From: Petrosia ficiformis
Lineage: Eukaryota > Porifera > Demospongiae > Haplosclerida > Petrosiidae
Direction of reading: 5' to 3'
DNA: 64,000 bases
NCBI GenBank assembly: GCA_947044365.1
Contig: OX345645.1
Span: 5,341,741 to 5,405,740, forward strand
Each line of letters starts with the position of its first letter. The stretch's first letter is position 1. Below the pieces are notes generated by a model. That model did not search any database. It worked only from the letters and a program-made list of their open reading frames with translations, and was not told the DNA's origin. Below are positions 1,050 through 41,394 of this stretch, piece by piece. The translations under genes and the position numbers were made by a program.

Positions 1050-4000
1050 CTATGCCTCCACTATTGGATGTGGACCAAGTTTCTTTTCTTTACGTTGAGC
1101 AATCAGTGTTTTCTTCATGTGTTTTAGTATATCAATCACAAAAGATGATTTCTGAATTGCAACATAACATAATGATGGATGCAGTAACACAGTTTCCCAG
1201 AATTGATGTATCATTGGTATCCAGTCTTCTTTATATGCATGTCTAGGTGGTAAAGATCGACCAAGTATAAATTTCAGAAACTTCATGTCTTCATTTCTCT
1301 TCAGCATATTTGTAACATGAGGAATTATCTCTTTATAATACAATGATGTCCATACCTGTTTTGAGATCCCTGAGCTGTAAAATTTCACTGCCAGTGATTT
1401 TAGATTACAAGTGGCTTCAAAGAAGTCCTTCAAATTAATATTTTCTGATAATTCAATGTCTACATTCAGTTCTTGTAGTGTGTTGTTTCCTCTCAAACCA
1501 GTAGTCAGGTATTTGATAAGTAATGTACAATTGGATGCTCGACTTTTGATCTCCAGACATAGTAGTGATTTGCTTGATGACAACATCAATTGAAGAGATT
1601 TTCCCACTTTATCATGAAACAAATCAATACCATCACAGTTTATTCTCAGAGCTACGACAGTTCTGTTACTGGAGAGAGTATTAAATAGCTCATTAAGATC
1701 TCCTTCTTTCTCTAATGCTATATCCAGATGTTGTAGAAAAGGGTTAGAATCTAAATAAATAATGAATGGCATCAATGGTTTATATAGGGATAGACTTTTC
1801 AAGTTAGTAGTATTTCTTCCAACATTTTCTAATCCAGGTGGCAAAGTTTCTGTTTTTTTTTACAGGATATGTTATGATATCATGTACTGTATAATTACTG
1901 ATATTTAGTGCTGTAAGACATTCATTAGCCGGTATGATATACAGAGATGGGAGTATTTCTTTAATAGGTATATTGAGTTTAACAGCTCGTAAGCTTTGGT
2001 TTTTTTTCATTAGCTCTTCAATTTGTAATGACTTGGTCTGAGTAGAGTCTGATGATAGTGAAAAGAACTGGATTGTATCATTTTTCTCTACTCCAATAAG
2101 CAAACTATTTATTAATGAGTTGAATTCCAAATGTGCAAACTTAATTAAAAGTTCTTTAATAGTACGATTTGTAGATAATACCTTCTCCATTTCCAGTAAT
2201 AATTCATTATCAATATGGTCTTCTGTACATGTTTGAACATATAACTTGTTAATGTGTACATGTAGGATACTCAAATGTGGCAGTTTAAATAGCTGTGTGA
2301 ACATGATCACAACTGAATCAAGATATATGTTACCAGATGTGTGGACAATTACATAACTTTCTTGAAGGTACTGACACAATGATGATTGGTATATCTTCAA
2401 TACTGATGTGATATCAAGAAATCTTGCTTTCATTACAATACAATTAGAATCTTCATTCAAAAGTTGCAGCTTGTCATGAAGATATGGATGATGGAGATAA
2501 TTCCAAGTTATCTTTGAGTTCTTCAGGAGAAACGACAAACACAATAAATCAAATTGTGATGAATAAACTCTATCCACACAAAGAGAGGAGTTTTTAATGG
2601 ATGAAACAAATATCTGACACAATACTTTGTTTTCAGACTCGTAAATTAGATGAAGCAATTGTATAGTATCTATATCATAATAGGGTTCATGAAGAGGATA
2701 CTTACTCGAGAATGAATAACGAATGTCATCACAAAGCAATTGTGGATTCTGATGAAACACAGAGCACTGATGAGATTCAAAACCAAACAATGGTTTCCTT
2801 ATGCACTGTAAGTCTACCTCTTTACTGAAATACTCTTGATAGCTGTCATCTTTAAGTTCAGTCAGACCTGCCATAAATCTTAGTGTCATGCGAAAGTGAG
2901 TTCCATGGAAATGTTCCCTAAATAGCATTTTTTGATCATCATGGTGAGTTATCCACCATGCTGCCAGGAACTCCTGAATGGTTAAATGAACAAACTGATG
3001 TTTAGTGGTGTCTGCTATCTTGTAACAGTTCATTAATCCAAAATGTTCACACTGCAATGATTGTGATAACTTTAGTATTTCTTTTCTGTTAAAGGTATTA
3101 TTTTGTGTTTGCAGCTTCTCATAAGCACAACAACAAAGTTCATCAAATGCTCTTTTTTGATCCTCTTCAAGTTCCTCAAGTGATTCAACTGTGTCTGGAT
3201 CAAATTTTTGTTTTTTCATTGATCTCTTTACAGCATAAAGAACATATTTCTTGTAAAACTTAGTCAAAGTGTTAGGAAGAATAAAGCCACTCAACTGATA
3301 AACTCTTACTAACATGGAACAAACAAATGGTATATAACATAATGACAAGACATCTTCCCTAATCTCCAATTCTTCTATTAATTGTTTAGCATTCTCTTTG
3401 GTCAGCTCATTTCTGATGCAAGAAAAAATCTCTTCCTTCTCAAAACCTAGTACTTCAACATGACGATTAACACTGTGTAGTTGAAGAAGTTTTGCTGAAG
3501 CATATGTACGTGAAGTAACTAGTACATTACATTTGTGTAGTTGTCTTCCTTGAATAATATCCAGTATGAATGATCTGTTTTGATCTCTTCCCTTAAACTC
3601 ATCCCATCCATCAAATATTAATAACATATTATTACCATCAGTCTCTATAATCCCAGAACTGACAGCTTCACATATTTTTGTACTACCATGAAATAAAGAA
3701 ACAAGATCAGATATGTTTTCAGCTAATGCTACTTCCTCATCTCTGAGAGAAATAAGAAACAAAAGATCAAAGGAACATTTCTTCAGTTTATTTTTAGCCC
3801 ACATGTTACATAGTTTTTGACAGAGTGTAGTTTTCCCTACACCTGGAGGTCCATCAACTACTACTTTAATTGGACTATTATCATCATTATGTTTCAGTAC
3901 ATCTTGTATGTCTATTTTTTCTGATACATTCATTATATTATCTAATTTCCCTCGTAACATATTCCACGATCTCTTCATTCCTTCTGGTTCAGAAAGACAT

Positions 4001-4169
4001 CCTCCATGTCCCTTAATGAGTCCTAGTTGTCCAAACTTGTCTCCACCAATACGTTGATCTAACAAGTCATTATATACTACAGGATTTTGAAGATATCGAT
4101 CAAGCAATCCTTGAACAAACTTGTCAATATCAGTGGGGACTTCAGATGATATGTCATCTAATGACACAC
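1050..4169 (-). CDS. NLR gene A, NACHT-LRR exon, one frameshift
   Basis: Large terminal exon of an NLR (NOD-like receptor), a predicted cytosolic ATP-binding sensor. The acceptor tag|GT at 4169 gives phase 1 and the first residues SLDD. Walker A is GPPGVGKTTL and Walker B is MLLIFDGWDEF; both are intact. A helical middle region follows (DELCCCAYEKL, HLTIQEFLAAWW), then degenerate leucine-rich repeats with ILxxNRTIKEL-type units. The reading frame breaks at a run of nine T on the plus strand (1853-1861). The equivalent run in gene B has eight bases and one C. Downstream of the run the frame continues to the stop at 1050 and matches gene B (GLENVGRN, then NLKSLSLYKPLMPF). One extra base thus truncates the protein by about 260 residues; it may be a real mutation or a homopolymer error. 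The exon belongs with those at 4231-4569, 5258-5542 and 5637-5913. Confidence 0.9.
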
Positions 4170-4230: not shown

Positions 4231-4569
4231 CTAATTCTTTCATCATAGTTTTACATATCATAGACATCGCTGAGTTATTCTGATTGGTTAGCAATTTACA
4301 CAAAGCAATGAGTGTCTCTGGATTTTCATTGGCTTTAAGAGATCTCTGAACTTCATTTAGTAACTTACTGGCCTTCTCATAACGAGGAACACTTGCAGTA
4401 GTTATGATATTATCTTTAACAACATTAGATATTAGATCAACACCCCACAAATCATTAGCAAGTCTATTCGGTTCAGAGACCACATCAAGTATTTCAGAGA
4501 AATGTCTCTTCAGTATATTAAATGGTGTTAACTGATTTGGTTCACAAGATATCTGTGTACATGAATCAT
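4231..4569 (-). CDS. NLR gene A, CARD-like adaptor exon
   Basis: A 339-nt exon with acceptor tatag|AT at 4569 and donor G|GTAAGG at 4231, phase 1 at both ends. The open frame extends upstream to an ATG at 4753, but the acceptor gives a better join because the residues DDS that open it are matched by DDT in the equivalent exon of gene B. The sequence has the helical pattern of a CARD (death-fold) domain: LKRHFSEILDVV, LWGVDLISNVVKDNI, EKASKLLNEV, LIALCKLL, MICKTMMKELG. CARDs recruit downstream signalling partners by homotypic contact. A 61-bp intron separates it from the NACHT exon. Death-fold membership is confident; CARD rather than death or DED is moderate. Confidence 0.7.
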
Positions 4570-5257
4570 CTATAGATTGTGGTTTTCCAGAAATAGAGGC
4601 TAAATGGAGATCAATGTGGAGCATAGTATAACAATTATTTATAATAGAATTATTATGTATTGTAAAGGGAAACATTTCTCTTTCATGCAGAAATAATTTT
4701 ACACACAATGGTGAAATAAGTAATGAATAAGTAAAATGAAATGAACTATCCATAGCATAATGGAGATATTTTTATGGTCTGAAGAGCCTGATGTTTTTTT
4801 AGAGGCATTAGTCATTTATTATGCTTGTGTCACATAATGTTACATACATATTTAAAAATCCACCATTAATAAATTAATTGATGTAAAAGAATCAAGCTAC
4901 GATCAGCAGGAGAGAAGCAGCTAGTTGCAAGAAGTGCTTACACAGGATTTAGAGGTTTAGGCTTTATTATTTAGGGTGTAGGGATTAGTGTTTAGTGCTT
5001 ATTATTTAGGGACTATGGATAAGGTGTGAGAGTACAGGGTCTATGGTGTAGTCTATAGGGTTATGTAGGGTGCCGGGTCTTTGGCTGAAGCATTACTTGG
5101 GTAGTGGGTAGCTTGGGGGCCTGGGAAGTGGAAGTTTGTGGGAAAACTTTGCGAAAATGATAATGAAAAATTCTTGTTTCATTACAGTGTAATAAACACA
5201 TTTAGTCGTGATGTTCATCACATAGGTAGTAGCACTTTGTTTTCAGCTTACATTTAC
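4570..5257. other. Intron of NLR gene A with degenerate TTTAGGG-like text
   Basis: No exon found. Between about 4,945 and 5,110 the plus strand carries many loosely spaced ttaggg, tttaggg and gtaggg words (ttatttagggtgtaggg and similar), giving an unusually G-rich stretch. It is not a regular tandem array. Confidence 0.4.
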
Positions 5258-5542
5258 CTTCTTCACTCATTTTTTTGCTCATTGCATCTGCAGTATCTTT
5301 CTCTGCACACTCATCCACTGATGATATTAACTTTTTCCATGATGCTCCTGGTGCATTCTTAATCCACCAATCCAATGCTATTTCTATTGCATAATCATAT
5401 GTTTCATCTTCCTTTATTATAGCTCTCATCTTTTCCTTTAGATCTACTGGAACATTCAAGATACTTGTTAACAAACTCCACTTTGTCTTGAAATTAAATC
5501 CACATTTATACAACAGTGCTACTGCTTTGCCAGGAGTAATCT
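5258..5542 (-). CDS. NLR gene A, death-domain exon directly after the 2A leader
   Basis: A 285-nt symmetric phase-1 exon, acceptor aacag|AGATTACTCC and donor GAAG|GTAAATG. Joined to the leader exon it reads GP-VEITPGKAVALL, so it forms the first residues of the protein made after 2A skipping. The rest is death-domain-like: KWSLLTSILNVPVDLKEKM, IEIALDWWIKNAPGASWKKL, ISSVDECAEKDTADAM. The conserved tryptophan and the leucine pattern fit helices 1-6. It is homologous along its whole length to the exon at 33207-33491, which has exactly the same length. The domain is expected to mediate homotypic assembly in the cytosol. Confidence 0.8.
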
Positions 5543-5636
5543 CTGTTATTAATTAGAAAAATAGCAAATTATTACATTAAAAACAAATGAGAAAAACATT
5601 TATACAAATCTGCTTAGTATAATAGTAATAACTAAC

Positions 5637-5913
5637 CCACAGGTCCAGGATTTGATTCCACATCACCACAGAGTATAAGTTTTAGAAATATACATACAGT
5701 TAGTGTATACAACCACACACTACCATGACTGAGTAATGCTCTGAGTATATTTGTACACATTCCAACATTTTCAGTCTCCCAATGATAATCTTTTGTCCAC
5801 TGTACAACTACATGACTTTGCATGTTATTAATGAGTCTGCTTTTCCTCTTGACAGACTTCATATGACCACACCATATTCCAATACAAACTCTCCATTGTA
5901 TGAGATCAATCAT
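5637..5913 (-). CDS. NLR gene A, 2A leader exon (hydrophobic leader ending in GDVESNPGP)
   Basis: Starts at ATG 5911-5913 (MIDLIQWR) and ends in phase 1 at donor G|GTTAGT. A candidate acceptor catacag lies nine bases upstream of the ATG and is also present at gene B, so a 5' non-coding exon may precede. The leader is 92 residues. Near its end is a hydrophobic run, VWLYTLTVCIFLKLIL, followed by CGDVESNPGP-V. This is the D(V/I)ExNPGP consensus of 2A/CHYSEL peptides, which make the ribosome skip the bond between the last Gly and Pro. Predicted products are a 90-residue leader and a separate protein starting with Pro. If skipping fails, the hydrophobic run could act as a signal or membrane anchor. 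Most of the leader has no family I recognise. Confidence 0.85.
5641..5667 (-). other. 2A ribosome-skipping motif GDVESNPGP, copy A
   Basis: Nine codons read on the minus strand: Gly at 5665-5667, Asp 5662-5664, Val, Glu, Ser, Asn, Pro, Gly 5644-5646, Pro 5641-5643. All invariant residues of the D-x-E-x-N-P-G-P consensus are present. The predicted skip is between codons 5644-5646 and 5641-5643. Confidence 0.9.
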
Positions 5914-20037: not shown

Positions 20038-23000
20038 TTATAAAAACCTAACTTCTTCAAGTGACAGTATATTTGTCATTTCTACTATTGGATGTGGACC
20101 AAGTTTCTTTTCTTTACGTTGAGTAATCAGTGTTTTCTTCATATCATTTAGTATGTCTATCATAATAGATGATTTTTCAATCTTAATATAACGCAACGAT
20201 GGATGCAGTAACACAGTTTCCCAGAATTGATGTATCGTTGGTATCCATTCTTCTTTATATGTATCTTGAGATTGTAAACCGTGGAGGAACATAACTTTCA
20301 GGAACTTCATGTCTTCATTTTTCTTCAACATATCTGTAACATCAGGGATTATCTCTTCATAATACAATGATGTCAATTGTTCTGACATCCACCATATTCG
20401 AAACATCATTGTCAGTGATTTTAAACTATCAGTAGCTGCAAAACATTCCTTCAAATTAATATTTTCTAATAATTTAATATCTACATTCAGTTCTTGTAGT
20501 GTGTTGTTTCTTCTCAGACCAGTAGTCAAGTATTTTATAAGTAATGTACAATTGGATGCTCGGCTTTTGATCTCCAGACATTGTAGTGATTTGTTTGATG
20601 ACAACATCAATTGAAGAGATTTTCCAACTTCATCATGAAACAAAGCAATCCCTTGACAGTTTATTTTTAGGGCTATGACAGTTATATTATTGGAAAGAAT
20701 GTTAAACACTTCATCAAAACTTTCCTCTCTCTCTAGTACTATATCCAGATGTTGTAGAAAAGGGTTAGAATCTAAATAGATAATGAATGGCATCAATGGT
20801 TTATATAGGGATAGACTTTTCAAGTTAGTAATATTTCTTCCAACATTTTCTAATCCAGTTGACCAACTTTCTGTTTTCTTTACAGGATATGTTATGATAT
20901 CATGTACTGTATCATTACTGATATTTAGTGCTGTAAGAGATTCATTAACTGGTATGATACATAGAGATGGGAGTATTCCTTTAATAGGTATATTCAGTTT
21001 AACTGCTTGTAAGGTTTGGTTGTTTTTCAACAGCTCTTCAATTTGTAATGACTTAGTACGAGTAGAGTCTGATGATAGTGAAAAGAACTGTATTGTATCA
21101 TTTCTCTCTACTCCAGTAATCAAACTATTTATTAATGAGTTGAATACCAAATTTGACAGATTAATAAAAAATTCTTTAACAGTATGATTTGTAGACAATG
21201 CCATCTCCATTTCCAGTAGTAACTCATTATCAATATGATCTTCTGATTCAAAAAATGAGAAATTGTGAAAGTGGACACTTAGGATGTTCAGATGGAGCAG
21301 TTTAAACAGCTGTGTGAACATGATCACAACTGAGTCAAGATGTATGGGATCAATGTAGTAGAGATTAATATAACTTTCTCGCAGGTACTGACAAAATGAT
21401 GATTGGTGTATCCTGATTACTGATGTGATATCATCATATGCTGCTTTCATTACAATGCAATTAGTCATGTTTGAATCTTCATTGTAAAGTTGCAGAATTT
21501 CATGAACATATGTATGATGAAGATATTTCCAAGTGAACTTTGAGTTCTTCAGGAAAAAAGACAAACACAATAAATCAAATTGTGAAGAATACACTCTATA
21601 CACACAGAGAAAGGAGTTTTTAATGGATGAAACAAATGTCTGACACAATACTTTGTTTTCAGACTCATAAATTAGATGAAGCAATTGTATAGTATCTGTA
21701 TCATAATAGGATTCATGAAGGGGATATGTACTCAAGACCGAATCATTATTGTCATCACAAAACAATTGTGAATTTTGATGAAACACAGAGCATTGATGGG
21801 ATTCAAAACCAAACAATGGTTCCCTTATACACTGTAAGTCTACCTCTTTATTGAAATAATCTTGATAGCTGTCGTCATTGAGTTCAGTCAGACCTGCCAC
21901 AAATCTCAGTGTCATGCGAAAGTGAGTATCCTGGAAATGCTCTCTAAACAGCATTTTTTGATCATCATGGTGAGTTATCCACCATGCTGCCAGGAACTCC
22001 TGAATGGTTAGATGAAGAAACTGATGTTTAGTGGTGTCTGCTATCTTGTAACAGTTCATTAATCCAAAATGTTCACACTTCAATGAATGTGATAACTTTA
22101 GTATTTCATTTCTATTGAAAGTGGTATTTTGTGTCTTCAGCTTCTCATAAGCACAACAACAAAGTTCATCAAATGCTCTCTTTTGATCTTCTTGTAGTTC
22201 CTCAAGTGATTCAACTGTGTCTGGATCAAGTTCTTGTTTTTTCATTGATCTCTTTACAGCATAAAGAACATATTTCTTGTAAAACTTAGTCAAAGTGTTA
22301 GGAAGAATAAAGCCACTCAGCTGATAAACTCTCACTAACATGGAACATAAAAAAGGTATATAACATAATGACAAGACATCTTCTCTAATCTTCAATTCCT
22401 TTATTAATTGTTCAGCATTATTTTTAGTTAGTTCACTCCTGATGTATGAAAAAATCTCTTGTTTCTTAAAACCTAATACTTCAACATGACGATTAACACT
22501 GTGTAGTTGAAGAAGTTTTGCTGAAGCATATGTACGTGAAGTAACTAGTACATTACATTTGTGTAGTTGTCTTCCTTGAATAATATCCAGTATGAATGAT
22601 CTGTTTTGGTCTCTTCCCTTAAACTCATCCCATCCATCAAATATTAGTAACACATCTTCACCATTTGTCTCCATGATGTTTTTACTAATATTTTGACAAA
22701 CCTTTTTACTACTATGAAATGAAGAAACAAGATATGATATGTTGTCAGCTGATGATACTTCCGTATCTCTGAGAGAAATAAGAAACACAAAATCAAAGGA
22801 ACATTTCTGCAGTTCATTCTTAGCCCACATGTTGCATAGTTTATGACAAAGTGTAGTTTTTCCTACACCTGGAGGTCCATCAACTACTACTTTGATTGGA
22901 CAATTATCATTATTATGCTTCAGTACATCTTGTATGTCTATTTTCTCTGATACATTCATAATGTTATCTAATTTCCCTCGTAACATATTCCATGATCTCT

Positions 23001-23195
23001 TCATCCCTTCTGGTTCAGAAAGACATCCTCCATGTCCCTTAATGAGTCCTAGTTGTCCAAACCTGTCTCCACCAATACGTCGATCTAACAAATCATTGTA
23101 TACTACAGGATTTTGAAGATATTGATCATGCAATCCTTGAATAAACTTGTCAGTATCAGTGGTGACTTCAGATAATAAATCATCTAATGACACAC
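20038..23195 (-). CDS. NLR gene B, NACHT-LRR exon, intact
   Basis: Single open exon of about 1,052 codons. Acceptor cacag|GTGTGTCATTAG at 23195, phase 1, first residues SLDDLLSEV. Walker A GPPGVGKTTL and Walker B LLIFDGWDEF are complete. The STAND-type middle follows (VLGFKKQEIFSYI, then FYKKYVLYAVKRSMKK and HLTIQEFLAAWW). The last 500 residues hold degenerate leucine-rich repeats: MALSTNHTVKEF, ILSNNITVIALKINC, LMLSSNKSLQCLEI, GLRRNNTLQELNV. It ends LEEVRFL. It is highly similar to gene A, and at the place of gene A's frameshift it reads through cleanly. Predicted role: cytosolic sensor that oligomerises on ATP binding. The upstream exon of the gene is 24354-24704. Confidence 0.93.
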
Positions 23196-24353: not shown

Positions 24354-24704
24354 CACATTCTTGTTTCAGTTGGTTTGCTAATACATTTTCTCCTACCATA
24401 TCAAGTGTAGTGGATAATTTCAGTAGCCCTTCTTCGTATGTAGAGAAACTTGTATCCATCTTCAACCATTTATTCAACATTTCTAACACACAGTTTGACA
24501 TTCTATCATGATTATTATATTCAATCTCTTCTACAACAGAACCCAATCCTAGTAATTGTCCAACACGTTTCCAATCCCTCAGGATAGTAATCTGGGCTAC
24601 ACGTATTTGTAATCTCTCTCTAACATTAGTACTTAATATTTTCTTTGTTACTGCTAGATTGTCATTCACTTCACATTCATTCATTGATGATACTGATGTG
24701 TCAT
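24354..24704 (-). CDS. NLR gene B, second death-domain exon
   Basis: A 351-nt symmetric phase-1 exon, acceptor tttgtag|ATGAC at 24704 and donor G|GTAAGT at 24354. After an acidic start (DDTSVSSMNECEVND) the sequence is a clear death domain: LRDWKRVGQLLGLGSVVEEI, then CVLEMLNKWLK, YEEGLLKLSTTLDMVGENVL, ANQLKQECG. It occupies the position that the CARD-like exon has in gene A, with the same splice phases and the same DD opening. So the two paralogues have different effector domains on nearly the same NACHT-LRR body. Confidence 0.88.
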
Positions 24705-33206: not shown

Positions 33207-33491
33207 CTTCTTCACTTAGTGTTTTTCTCATTGCATGTGCAGTATTTTTGTCTCCACACCTGTCTACTGATGATATTAATTCTTTCCATGATGCTTCTGA
33301 TGTGTTCTTAATCCACCAGTCCAATGCTATTTCTATTGCATAATCATATGCTTCATCTTCCTTTATTATAGCTCTTATCTTTCCCTTTAGCTCTAGTGGA
33401 ACATTTAAGATACTTGTTAACCGATACCAATTGCTCTTAAATTTAAATCCACAATCACTGAGCAGAAGTACTGCTTTACCAGGAGTAATCT
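33207..33491 (-). CDS. NLR gene B, death-domain exon after the 2A leader
   Basis: A 285-nt symmetric phase-1 exon, acceptor aacag|AGATTACTCC and donor GAAG|GTAAGC. It lacks an ATG and is invisible to ORF callers. It codes ITPGKAVLLLSDCGFKFKSN, then WYRLTSILNVPLELKGKIRA, IEIALDWWIKNTSEASWKEL, SSVDRCGDKNTAHAM. It is homologous over its full length to 5258-5542. It is the first exon translated after the 2A skip site. Confidence 0.8.
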
Positions 33492-33601: not shown

Positions 33602-33860
33602 CCACAGGTCCAGGATTTGATTCAACGTCACCAGAGAGTATCAGAAGTAGAAATATACACACAGTTAGTGCATACAAACACACACTAGTATGAATGAGTA
33701 ATGTTCTAATACATACTCCAAAATTTTCACTCTCCCAATGATAATGTTTCACACTTGGATGATTTTGCATGTTATCAACAAGTCTGCATTTCATCTTTAA
33801 AGATTTCATACCACCACACCAAATTCCAATAGAAATTCTCCATTGTATAAGATCAATCAT
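33602..33860 (-). CDS. NLR gene B, 2A leader exon (hydrophobic leader ending in GDVESNPGP)
   Basis: Starts at ATG 33858-33860 (MIDLIQWRISIGIWCG), with the same upstream catacag|atattcata context as gene A, and ends G|GTTAGT in phase 1. It codes 86 residues, six fewer than copy A. The hydrophobic run is VCLYALTVCIFLLLIL, then SGDVESNPGP-V. Between the conserved start and the hydrophobic run the two leaders differ by substitutions and a gap, while the last nine residues are identical. Predicted products are an 84-residue leader and a death-domain-first NLR. An upstream in-frame ATG at 33,902 exists, but the conserved acceptor argues against its use. Confidence 0.85.
33606..33632 (-). other. 2A ribosome-skipping motif GDVESNPGP, copy B
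   Basis: Gly 33630-33632 through Pro 33606-33608 on the minus strand. The protein is identical to copy A, with synonymous differences at the Val (GTT versus GTG) and Asp (GAC versus GAT) codons. This fits selection on the peptide rather than a very recent copy. Confidence 0.9.
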
Positions 33861-37702: not shown

Positions 37703-38717
37703 TTAGTAATTCAGCAGGTGATGCAAAAACTGTATCAAACGAGAGCTAACATTTCCTTCCAATTTCTTTAGTGCTGACTTAAATGTTTGGACAGCTCTTT
37801 CGGCAAGGCCATTTGAGCTGGGATGATAAGGTGAGGTACGAATATGTTGTATACCACATTGTTTCATAAATGATTGAAATTCGTGACTGGTAAATGCAGT
37901 ACCATTGTCAGAAACTAGTTGCTCTGGAAGTCCATGAGTTGAAAATATTTGCTGTAGTTTATGAATAGTAACTTCCGATGATGTTGAGTTAACAATGTGC
38001 ACTTCAAGCCATTTTGAATGAGCATCAATCAATACGAGGAACAATTTACCTAAAAATGGGCCTGCGTGATCTATGTGAACACGACTCCATGGCTTTCGTG
38101 GGAATTCCCAAAGGTGAAGAGGAGCTTTTGATGGAACAGAACGGTTTAGCTGGCAGGTGTTACAATGTTGTACTTTTCTTTGAATATCAGAATCAATACC
38201 TGGCCACCACACATATGAACGGGCTAACATTTTCATTTTCGTAATTCCAGGGTGAGTTTGGTGAAGTTGATCTAGAATAGTCTTACGAGCAACAGTGGGT
38301 ATAATGACTCGACAACCTAACAATAAACATCCGTCTAAAACACTAAGTTCAGTATGCCTGTTGTGAAAAGGAGTGAGGTCTGGTGTAGGTTCAGTAATAT
38401 TCCATCCATTTTCTACTAGTTTTCTTACACGAGATAAGAGAGGATCTTTGTCTGTCCAATCTTTTATTTGTGCAGCAGTAACAATGGACTCTTCTAAATG
38501 ATTTAGGAGGTGAATAAGATCGCCAGGCATTGGAACTTCAGAATCGGAAAAGGAATGTTTAAGTGGAAGTCTGCTGAGGGCATCTGCAGTTGACATATTT
38601 TTACCTGGCTTATATTTGATTGTGTACTGGTAAGCAGCTAATGTTAAGGCCCAGCGTTGAATTCTTGCTGAAGCCATAGATGGTGTTGCATGAGATTCAC
38701 TGAAAATACGTTCCAGG
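37703..38717 (-). CDS. End of RNase H and integrase zinc/catalytic core
   Basis: The frame begins right after the RNase H frameshift (ARIQRWALTLAAYQYTIKYK, ADALSRLPL). The integrase HHCC zinc finger follows (LHQTHPGITKM, VQHCNTCQ). The DDE core shows the acidic residues in DHAGPF, VSDNGTAF and SNGLAERAVQTF. It ends early at HHLLNY because of the deletion near 37,735. Confidence 0.88.
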
Positions 38718-40322
38718 GCTTATGATCTGAATAAAGAGTAAAATGAGTACCATATAAATATTGGTGGAAACGTTTGACACCGAAAATGATTGCTAGTGCT
38801 TCTTTTTCTAACTGAGAGTAATTACGTTCTGCTGGTGAGAGGGTACGAGAGGCAAAAGTTATTGGTTTTTCTGTGTTGTATGGCATTTTGTGAGTTAAAA
38901 CGGCTCCAACTCCGTATGGAGAGGCGTCACAATATAAAAAGAGGGGTTTCTCACTGTCGTAATGTACTAATAGTGAAGATGATTGCAACAGTTGTTTAAC
39001 TTCATCAAAGGCAGTTTGTTGTGGATCTGTCCATGTCCACTTTATACCTTTACATAACAATGAATGAAGAGGAGCCAAAACATCTGACACATTTGGCAGG
39101 AATTTGTGGTAGTAGTTAACAAGTCCTAAAAATGCTCTTAGTTCCGTTACATTTGTAGGAGCGGGTGCTTCTTGAATAGCTTGTACTTTTGTTGGTGATG
39201 GATGAAGTCCATTACTGTCGATTATGTGCCCTAGGTATTCCACTGAAGTTGTGGCAAAAATGCATTTTGAATGCTTTAGGGTGATACCAGCTGATGTCAG
39301 GCGTGCTAAAACTTGTTCTAGGTTATGTAGATGATCTGCTTCATTCTTGCCTGAGACTAAGATGTCATCTATGTAGACACATACATTTGGTAGGTCACGC
39401 AACAAGTTTTCCATAAGTCTTTGAAATATGCTTGGGGCAGTGGAAATACCAAATGGTAGACGGTTGTACTGAAATAGTCCTTTGTGTGTATTGATTGTTG
39501 TGAATTTCTTTGAATCTTCATCTAAGGGTAACTGCTGGTATGCTTGACTTAGGTCCAGTTTAGTAAACAATTTACCATTTTGTAATGCAGCAAAAATATC
39601 TTCTAAGCGAGGAAGTGGGTAACTATCTGGAGTGAGGGATTGGTTAACTGTAACTTTATAATCGCCACAGAGGCGTATGTTGCCATCTCTTTTCATAATA
39701 GGAACAATTGGAGTAGCCCACTCAGCGTGTTGAACAGGAGAAATGATACCTAAATTTTGTAGTCGATCAAGTTCGATTTCTACTTTTTCTTTGAGACGAT
39801 ATGGTACTGGTCTAGCTCTGAAATATTTGGGAGTAGCTTGAGGGTCAACGTATAACTTAGCAGTGGCACTTCGAAGTAATCCCAATTTGTCAGCAAACAA
39901 AGGTGCATATTTATCCAATAATGGTGATACTGATATGTTCTGAAGGGTGTGAATTGAGTTCCAATCTAGTTTGATCTTTTCCAGCCAATTTCTACCAAAT
40001 AAGCTTGGACCTTGACCTTGCACTACGACTAATGGCAGGGTGTGTACTTGGGACTGGTAGCACACTTGTACATCATAAGTACCTAGAATACTGAGACTTT
40101 GACCAGTGTAAGTAGTAAGTGTAATATCAGTTGGTTGTAACTTATCTGTTGGACTTGCAATAGACTGGAAGGTTTGCTCACTTATAACTGATAATGATGC
40201 TCCCGTGTCCAACTCCATTGAAATATCAGTTCCATTCACATTAACTGTAATAATTAAAGATTTGGGTTTTCCAGGAAGAGTAAACAGGGTATAATTATTA
40301 TCCAGCCCTTTGGGAGGGGGTG
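38644..40322 (-). CDS. Pol: protease, reverse transcriptase, RNase H (first part)
   Basis: Protease site LDTGASLSVI; RT with CGDYKVTVNQ, LPFGISTAPSIFQ and the catalytic YIDDILVSG; RNase H FLYCDASPYGVGAVL and YSDHKP. The frame is open from just after the gag stop, in the -1 frame relative to gag and with no early ATG, so expression probably uses frameshifting or reinitiation. After DHKP the frame is lost: a run of three G on the plus strand near 38,715 appears one base short. The downstream residues resume in the frame of 37,703-38,717. Confidence 0.93.
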
Positions 40323-40334
40323 AGGGTACAGAGG

Positions 40335-41126
40335 TTAATTAGAGGTGGGTTTTGAGGTCAGTGCGTATACACTAGGCTTCTTTGATGATTTTAGAGTTCC
40401 ACCTTGTGGTTGTCTGGTGGGCTGTTTGCTTTTACAAACTTTGGCTATGTGACCAATTTTGCCACAAGCTCTGCACTCTGCTTTTTGAAAACTGCAAGAG
40501 TTTGCAAGGTGATTACCACCGCATCTATAACATGTGAAAGTGAAACGTTTTGGACGTGCCTTTAACTGTTGTATTGGTAATGCAGGTACAGGAATTTGTC
40601 TGTGAAGAGCTGCAGCATCCTTAGCAGCCAATTCTATCGATTGAGAAATCTCAAATGCCTTTTCATAGGTTAAACTCGATGATTCTTGCAATAAGCGGTT
40701 TTGAATACGAATATCATTCACCCCACATACGAGACGATCCCTAACCACTTCGTGTAACTTGTCTCCGAATTGACAATGTTCACCCAAACGTTTGAGTTCT
40801 GCTACGTAAGTAGCTACTGATTCACTGTCTTTCCTCGTACGGGTATTGAACTTGTAACGTTGCATTATCACTGAAGGAGCAGGACTGAAGTGATCACTGA
40901 GTACTTTTATAATTTCTGAGTAAGTCTTGTCATTTGTGGTGCTCGGTTGTAGCAAACTTTTTAGCAGTTCAAATGTTGCAGGACCGCACACAGTTAATAG
41001 GATTGCTTTCTTCTTATCATCGTCTTGGACATCATTTGCAGTAAAGTAGTAACCTAATCGTTCTGTATAGGAGGACCATGACTCTTGGTTTGAATTAAAG
41101 TAAGAAATCTTCCCGTGGACTGCCAT
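40335..41126 (-). CDS. Gag with two zinc knuckles
   Basis: Start chosen at MAVHGKISYF (41,124-41,126), 20 bases inside the LTR boundary, not at the longer frame that begins in the LTR. The capsid-like region has the gag pattern ESVATYVAELKRLGEHCQFG and VVRDRLVCGV. Two CCHC knuckles follow: CYRCGGNHLANSC and CRACGKIGHIAKVC. It ends in a Pro/Lys-rich tail. 263 residues, intact. Confidence 0.93.
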   Translation of the reverse strand: MAVHGKISYFNSNQESWSSYTERLGYYFTANDVQDDDKKKAILLTVCGPATFELLKSLLQPSTTNDKTYSEIIKVLSDHFSPAPSVIMQRYKFNTRTRKDSESVATYVAELKRLGEHCQFGDKLHEVVRDRLVCGVNDIRIQNRLLQESSSLTYEKAFEISQSIELAAKDAAALHRQIPVPALPIQQLKARPKRFTFTCYRCGGNHLANSCSFQKAECRACGKIGHIAKVCKSKQPTRQPQGGTLKSSKKPSVYALTSKPTSN

Positions 41127-41128
41127 GA

Positions 41129-41146
41129 CTTTATCCTCGTCGCCAA
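41129..41146 (-). other. Primer binding site
   Basis: TTGGCGACGAGGATAAAG directly follows the 5' LTR on the minus strand. TGG at the LTR edge pairs with a tRNA CCA end. The tRNA identity is not determined. Confidence 0.7.
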
Positions 41147-41394
41147 TGTTGTGACCGAACACGCGTTGCACTGTAAACAACAACTGAACAGCAACCCGAA
41201 CAGTATCACACAATCTCAGAACTATTATTGAGCAACAGTAAAAGTGAATTACAGAACAGAACAGAATTTAACTGAACAGAAACTGACCATACAACTAACT
41301 ATAATTAAAAATGACTGAACTATATATAACATAACACTTGTAAGGTTTACAGGAAATTAATAATAATAATGAAATAACATATACAATTATCACA
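41147..41394 (-). repeat. 5' LTR of the Ty3/gypsy element
   Basis: 248 bp, TG...CA, one base different from the 3' LTR. The long gag frame that starts inside it at 41,213 is incidental. Confidence 0.97.

Follow-up and report, generated by a model that had tools for sequence, protein, structure and literature searches.

In the text available from PMC12846837, StopGo (2A) sequences are presented as mostly viral and seldom met in cellular genes, and the four motif classes tested there, the L-rich motif 6 among them, were all active in reticulocyte lysate; the L-rich motifs end in (A/S/C)G before D and carry S in the x position. The same source relates that Rao et al. (Cell Rep 2025) searched viral and cellular proteomes with a 2A profile, and that their class A resembles L-rich motifs. 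On the cellular side, the accessible part of Roulston et al. 2016 (PMC4981915) reports a 26-residue 2A sequence on sea-urchin NLRs (SpNLR2A) with about 80% skipping in vitro, a Golgi location of the protein once skipping is abolished, and a 2A leader on 14 of 87 NLR entries, or on 85 of 241 in another count; it upholds the parallel with sea-urchin NLRs that a first-pass annotation of the present DNA had drawn. For sponges, the portion at hand of PMC12909245 describes Death/NACHT/LRR receptors and transmembrane domains in NLR architectures.

Here, we analyzed a window of 64,000 nucleotides from the sponge Petrosia ficiformis (by window we mean this whole stretch of DNA), in which two genes, A and B, begin with an exon that encodes a leader closing on a 2A motif. 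N-terminal 2A sequences on NLRs are already known from sea urchin, and it is in their length, in their QWR head, and in the position of their hydrophobic run that the leaders described here differ. The sequences compared below suggest that such a leader may be a portable device yielding two proteins from one message.

The leader exon and the two NLR-like genes of the window

The first coding exon of gene A (table 1) reads, in a frame running from 5913 to 5637 on the minus strand, MIDLIQW...VWLYTLTVCIFLKLIL-C-GDVESNPGP-V, which confirms the earlier reading of a first exon that ends in GDVESNPGP-V. The DVExNPGP DNA pattern occurs twice in the window, against 0 occurrences expected from 100 shuffles, and 139 times in the window's genome, against 0 for the reversed pattern, counts that rule out a chance origin of the motif. 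The leader consists of the head MIDLIQWRVCIGIW, a variable basic middle, a hydrophobic run at residues 65-82, and GDVESNPGP-V. Gene A had previously been described as opening with a hydrophobic stretch; the leader has 90 residues, and the run sits at their C-terminal end instead. The exon closes after phase 1 on the donor G/GTTAGT (the slash marks the splice site), and the following exon (5542-5258, 285 nt, phase 1-1) begins at the acceptor AACAG/AGATTACT, the exon borders of both genes being drawn from DNA sequence alone.

Table 1. Features of genes A and B, with positions numbered from the first letter of the window
Feature	Position	Strand	Remarks
Gene A exon 1, leader + 2A	5637..5913	minus	277 nt, phase 0 to 1; 83 genome matches
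Gene A conserved head MIDLIQWRVCIGIW (QWR motif)	5872..5913	minus	dN/dS 0.22 over 53 reduced leaders; 14-residue profile
Gene A hydrophobic run SVWLYTLTVCIFLKLILC	5668..5721	minus	hydrophobicity above simulation; L-rich (S/C)G context
Gene A 2A/StopGo octapeptide DVESNPGP	5641..5664	minus	predicted skip between Gly90 and Pro91
Gene A exon 2, Death-like domain	5258..5542	minus	symmetric phase 1-1; 128 genome matches; family weakly matches Pfam Death
Gene A exon 3	4231..4599	minus	phase 1-1; no Pfam match
Gene A exon 4, NACHT + C-terminal region	1804..4169	minus	NACHT E 1.1e-23; stop at 1804
Gene B exon 1, leader + 2A (GDVESNPGP)	33602..33860	minus	
Gene B exon 2, Death-like domain	33207..33491	minus	73% identity to gene A exon 2
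Gene B exon 4, second Death-like domain	24354..24704	minus	Pfam Death E 2.7e-4, 21.4 bits, cut-off 22.6
Gene B last exon, NACHT + C-terminal region, intact	20038..23195	minus	NACHT E 2.2e-26

The phase-1 join of the leader to a death-domain exon, as first proposed, stands as far as the predicted junction is concerned, with splice sites and phases conserved. The second exon is termed Death-like here: Pfam Death has no match in gene A exon 2 itself, and matches 6 of 10 members of its family, weakly (best E 1.2e-4). A PDB sequence profile of the Death-like exon returned just two unrelated matches (E 0.77 and 0.98). Gene B apparently has two Death-like domains (33207-33491 and 24354-24704), and exon 3 of gene A is without a Pfam match. 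The NACHT exon of gene B, compared with PDB sequences, has NLRP3 as its closest solved structure (E 1.8e-17). When the C-terminal stretches of the two genes (550 and 300 aa from gene B, 198 aa from gene A) were compared with Pfam up to E 10, no family matched, LRR included. We call these proteins NLR-like because they combine a clear NACHT and weak Death matches with no Pfam LRR.

Gene B (33860-20038), as spliced here, is intact over 1384 codons including the stop. Gene A had been traced down to position 1,050, a course that its frame does not follow, being broken near an A-run at about 1855, with a stop at 1804. Three copies of its NACHT exon at 98-99% identity comprise two uninterrupted ones (1044 aa) and one with an internal TAG, and the break may reflect an allele, a gene in decay, or a fault of the assembly, which look alike in sequence. 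A search with 746 residues of gene B gave no homologue of its region 1-200 at E 0.01 among 2130 candidates. Elsewhere on the minus strand of the window, an LTR retrotransposon with weak gag-like, protease/reverse transcriptase/RNase H, and integrase frames lies upstream of gene B (37706-41267), and a further NACHT exon fragment, read by eye, is cut by the window edge (1-240).

Spread of the leader with Death-like/NACHT genes and selection on its parts

The 83 matches to the gene A leader in the window's genome merged to 81 places, 78 of which are followed on their own strand, at most 8 kb away, by a Death-like exon, the gap being 61-138 nt in 70 of the 78 pairs. Conversely, 55 of the 57 NACHT exons of the gene A/B family (59 rows with two fragments merged; 57 scored of 290 candidates) have a leader within 20 kb upstream and no other NACHT in between. 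When all Pfam NACHT matches are considered (103 scored of 249 candidates), 74 have an upstream leader of either NACHT-gene type and 29 have none, six of these 29 lying at C10:1.63-1.67 Mb and another eleven at C1:53.7-54.7 Mb; likewise, 32 of the 128 rows of the Death-like exon are still unpaired with a leader. These family counts, in which the best candidates alone were scored, are lower bounds of large families.

Out of the 81 leader places, 79 were read and 75 could be parsed from ATG to NPG(P/L); the four unparsed ones, L008, L013 (in-frame TAG), L079, and L091, all show NPGP. A crude parser that accepted phase-1 donors only found a joined open frame of leader and Death-like exon in 48 of the 75 copies; in 8 of the 48, the acceptor that it chose lies before the one equivalent to that of gene A, and the 27 copies left comprise 17 leader-only fetches and 10 that the parser did not resolve. 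Of 48 Death-like exons, 37 have no in-frame upstream Met unless the leader is joined, and 11 have one, from which we infer that the leader would provide the start codon of the Death-like/NACHT gene, other 5' exons being possible. The 2A of these genes is predicted to lie toward the N-terminus of an NLR-type protein.

Under a parser that demanded NPG followed by P or L, GD(V/I)ExNPGP is kept in 74 of the 75 parsed leaders, the exception being NPGL in L092, and the leaders match the StopGo/2A core (D/G/C/N)(V/I)ExNPGP. They run over 75-96 residues up to the skip Gly with their hydrophobic run C-terminal, in disagreement with the notion of a short, signal-peptide-like leader of the SpNLR2A type (26 aa). 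The hexapeptides before the 2A core are LLILSG (29 of 75), LLLLCG (19), and QLILSG (18), plus close variants, and they fit the L-rich (A/S/C)G StopGo class as given in the available text of PMC12846837.

The Nei-Gojobori dN/dS of 53 reduced leaders was 0.68 as a whole; by part, it was lowest in NPGP (0.03), followed by residues 1-14 (0.22) and GDVExNPGP (0.24), and higher in the hydrophobic part (0.72) and the middle (0.82). Taken by itself, the commonest leader group (30 reduced rows) had an unchanged NPGP and a dN/dS of 0.11 over GDVExNPGP, with 1.15 in the hydrophobic part and 1.27 in the head, where both kinds of change are few. In two further groups, of 9 and 10 reduced rows, the head stood at 0.16 and 0.13 and the hydrophobic part at 0.55 and 0.57. 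Because the commonest group alone gives 1.27, selection on the head is to be read as seen across groups and in two of the three. On the sequences compared, these rates show that the 2A core is under strong purifying selection and the QWR head likewise across leader groups, and that the middle drifts. In the hydrophobic run, mean hydropathy reaches 2.2-2.4, against 1.3-1.4 under simulated drift with equal amino-acid changes, and a charged residue is found in 17-34% of leaders, against 72-92% in the simulations. The conservation of this L-rich run may, for its part, serve StopGo alone and not membranes.

Beyond this genome, a profile of nine leaders retrieved, from 2873 candidates, 836 short frames of public sequences with E values of 0.01 or less. 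In the best 120 of these 836, a set in which the profile search favors motif-bearing relatives and some contigs are possibly of the same species, GD(V/I)ExNPGP is found in 119 and NHGP in one, and QWR..(I/V)G.W in all 120.

Related leaders on other host genes and on Helitrons

From a host–transposon perspective, leaders related to that of gene A are not confined to its family. At a different 2A locus, the leader L049 (MIDLCQWRASVGLW...GDVELNPGPVTG) lies directly upstream of ankyrin-repeat frames; these repeats were found at L049, the one locus of the three fetched (L049, L050, and L054) whose downstream long frames were scanned. As a query, L049 gave 72 matches, namely 14 of its own type (C11, C2, C12, and C1), one fragment, 32 on C3 and C9, and 25 cross-hits to C10-type and transposon-type leaders. 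The C3/C9 leaders, which have the QWR head and GDIELNPGP in 10 of the 10 read, were missed by the DVE pattern because of that motif, and they pair with 16 Death-like exons and 20 NACHT matches, a second NACHT-gene group.

The leader L001 (MISLQQWRMTIGCF...GDVERNPGP) gave 59 matches, 52 of them after removal of ankyrin-type cross-hits. At most 5 kb downstream of these 52 Helitron-type leaders, on the same strand, Helitron_like_N is present for 13, DUF6570 for 13, either for 16, and neither for 36. By way of control, 0 of the 81 NACHT-gene leaders lie upstream of Helitron domains, and flipping the leader strand left 0 upstream of Helitron_like_N, the one domain used for that control. Three single open frames unite the leader, Helitron_like_N, and DUF6570 (C2:14088886, 2246 aa; C5:6996248, 2352 aa; C1:55799330, 2232 aa). 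With regard to public sequences, the Helitron-type leader L051 retrieved 7 frames (20 candidates), all 7 with GDVETNPGP and with heads that read QWR in 4, QYR in 2, and neither in 1; DUF6570 is present in 2 of the 7, and one of these two, P0124 (632 aa), joins head, 2A, and DUF6570. In the public Helitron-type frames P0124-P0128, the leader is longer between the QWR/QYR head and the 2A, counting 114-202 residues up to the last residue of NPGP.

A 14-residue profile built from 19 distinct NACHT-gene heads scored the Met-started leader heads of the loci analyzed at 15.3 or more, against 7.5 for the best other 14-mer, among 6276 Met-started 14-mers examined in all, and M1, Q6, W7, R8, I11, G12, L79, G83, D84, E86, and NPGP are invariant in nine aligned leader types, two of them from Helitrons. 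A leader tree (43 rows, 91 columns, unrooted, bootstrap not settled, three Helitron rows on long branches) places the Helitron leaders on one side (90/94) and does not give the direction of exchange.

A non-LTR retrotransposon was discarded as the source of the leader: L052 carries a 2A, but no QWR head was seen on its strand. This element has endonuclease and reverse transcriptase frames and GDVESNPGP before a Cys-rich stretch, and its opposite strand holds a decayed QWR leader with GNVELNPGP. Separately, L039-L044 (C3:2.02-2.31 Mb and C4:1.37 Mb) share GDVESNPGP and a run rich in L (for instance, LLLLLLFVLCGDVESNPGPGEYN), but the QWR head was not seen in them; scanning four of their frames for a host gene gave no convincing match.

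A broader proposal, possible though short of probable in our estimate, is that the leader is one homologous, portable translational module of Helitron replicase/helicase proteins and of at least three host groups (two NACHT and one ankyrin-type), moved between element and host as a phase-1 exon that Helitrons either captured or donated, and that the released tail-anchored peptide, made one-to-one with the sensor or replicase, would itself be selected, and not only the skip.

Predicted action of the leader, rival readings, and comparison with known systems

The reading that we favor, and hold to be fairly probable, is that the first exon is a portable StopGo leader, at which skipping would free a tail-anchored-like leader and then a cytosolic Death-like/NACHT protein, the leader probably being a product of its own. 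Ribosome skipping at the Gly-Pro of the leader appears likely, because the core and its upstream context match tested elements. Ribosomes translating ...LILCGDVESNPG/P (the slash marking the bond) would mostly skip the Gly-Pro bond and free a leader of about 75-96 residues made of the QWR head, the basic middle, and the C-terminal hydrophobic run, after which translation would go on to a cytosolic Death-like/NACHT protein starting with Pro. Given the length of the ribosomal exit tunnel, the hydrophobic run, 9-26 residues from the skip Gly, would lie within the tunnel at the time of the skip decision, so that signal recognition could not act before that decision and the freed leader would be expected to behave like a tail-anchored membrane peptide. 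The unskipped minority of chains would hold the run internally and go to the ER. The head of the leader, conserved and outside the 2A, suggests that the freed peptide probably is itself a product.

An alternative, which we consider rather improbable, is a dual-targeting switch in the sea-urchin style, in which the balance of skipped and unskipped chains would be regulated and the unskipped Death-like/NACHT protein would be a working membrane or secretory sensor. It draws on the sea-urchin precedent, where the available text of PMC4981915 reports both activities, on the conservation of the hydrophobic run as a class, and on the transmembrane segments given for sponge NLR architectures in the text available of PMC12909245. 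However, the run is not N-terminal, since 49-70 residues, with a middle that is net positive on average, precede the last-27 segment of the leader, and an internal Met able to start a short, simple signal peptide is found in just 37 of the 75 leaders. Besides, Helitron proteins have the same layout and are expected in the nucleus.

According to a second alternative, the leader would be a mere cassette of start codon and StopGo that gives a protein starting with Pro, and the freed peptide would be waste. We judge this improbable: its head residues M, QWR, and IG, outside the 2A core, are invariant in 9 of 9 aligned leader types, even if the leader holds the sole upstream in-frame Met in 37 of 48 copies and its middle evolves nearly freely (dN/dS 0.82). 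Lastly, that the 2A similarity is a relic, in transposon-derived leaders that no longer skip, is very improbable, as 2A-bearing transposon-type leaders are abundant in the genome but NPGP is near-invariant with synonymous change between leader groups, and the motif is kept in 119 of the best 120 of 836 public relatives.

Our search found no prior report of 2A in Helitrons, the 2025 eukaryotic 2A survey (Rao et al.), which may already contain leaders of this type, lying outside it. Nor did it find an earlier report of NPGP on sponge NLRs, the likeliest places for one, Rao et al. 2025 and Odon et al. 2013, being outside the search; in a sponge paper naming "2a-like," the term is part of a gene name only.

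If skipping at a portable leader is the correct reading, StopGo would be fixed at the start of an entire, growing family of immune sensors and would be common to these and a DNA transposon. The sharing between Helitrons and host genes would offer a testable route for the entry of a translational recoding device into host genes, and transmembrane segments annotated on invertebrate NACHT/LRR proteins may sometimes be skipped-off leaders. The roughly 80 natural leaders of this one genome also provide material for measuring the effect of upstream sequence on skipping efficiency.

With regard to mobile elements, Odon et al. 2013 reportedly found 2A sequences in APE-type non-LTR retrotransposons, which would resemble the present case in that a mobile-element protein carries a 2A; here, in contrast, the frame is that of a Helitron (DUF6570, Helitron_like_N), with a QWR head common to host genes. 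The leaders share the D(V/I)ExNPGP core and the L-rich (A/S/C)G hexapeptide with the viral L-rich StopGo/2A class, as presented in the available text of PMC12846837, but they stand N-terminally on a Death-like/NACHT protein whose gene is cellular and spliced, whereas the viral sequences lie within a polyprotein. The genes themselves resemble the sponge receptors in the portion at hand of PMC12909245 in a domain before NACHT, Death-type there and Death-like here, and in large, partly clustered families. As for SpNLR2A, in the accessible part of its description, the likeness lies in a 2A that precedes an NLR-type protein and directly follows a hydrophobic stretch, in a sea-urchin genome where non-LTR retrotransposons also carry 2A. 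Yet the SpNLR2A leader has 26 residues at the extreme N-terminus; the present one has 75-96 and a conserved QWR head, accompanies 55 of the 57 NACHT exons in a single family, and recurs on a mobile element of another kind, the Helitron.
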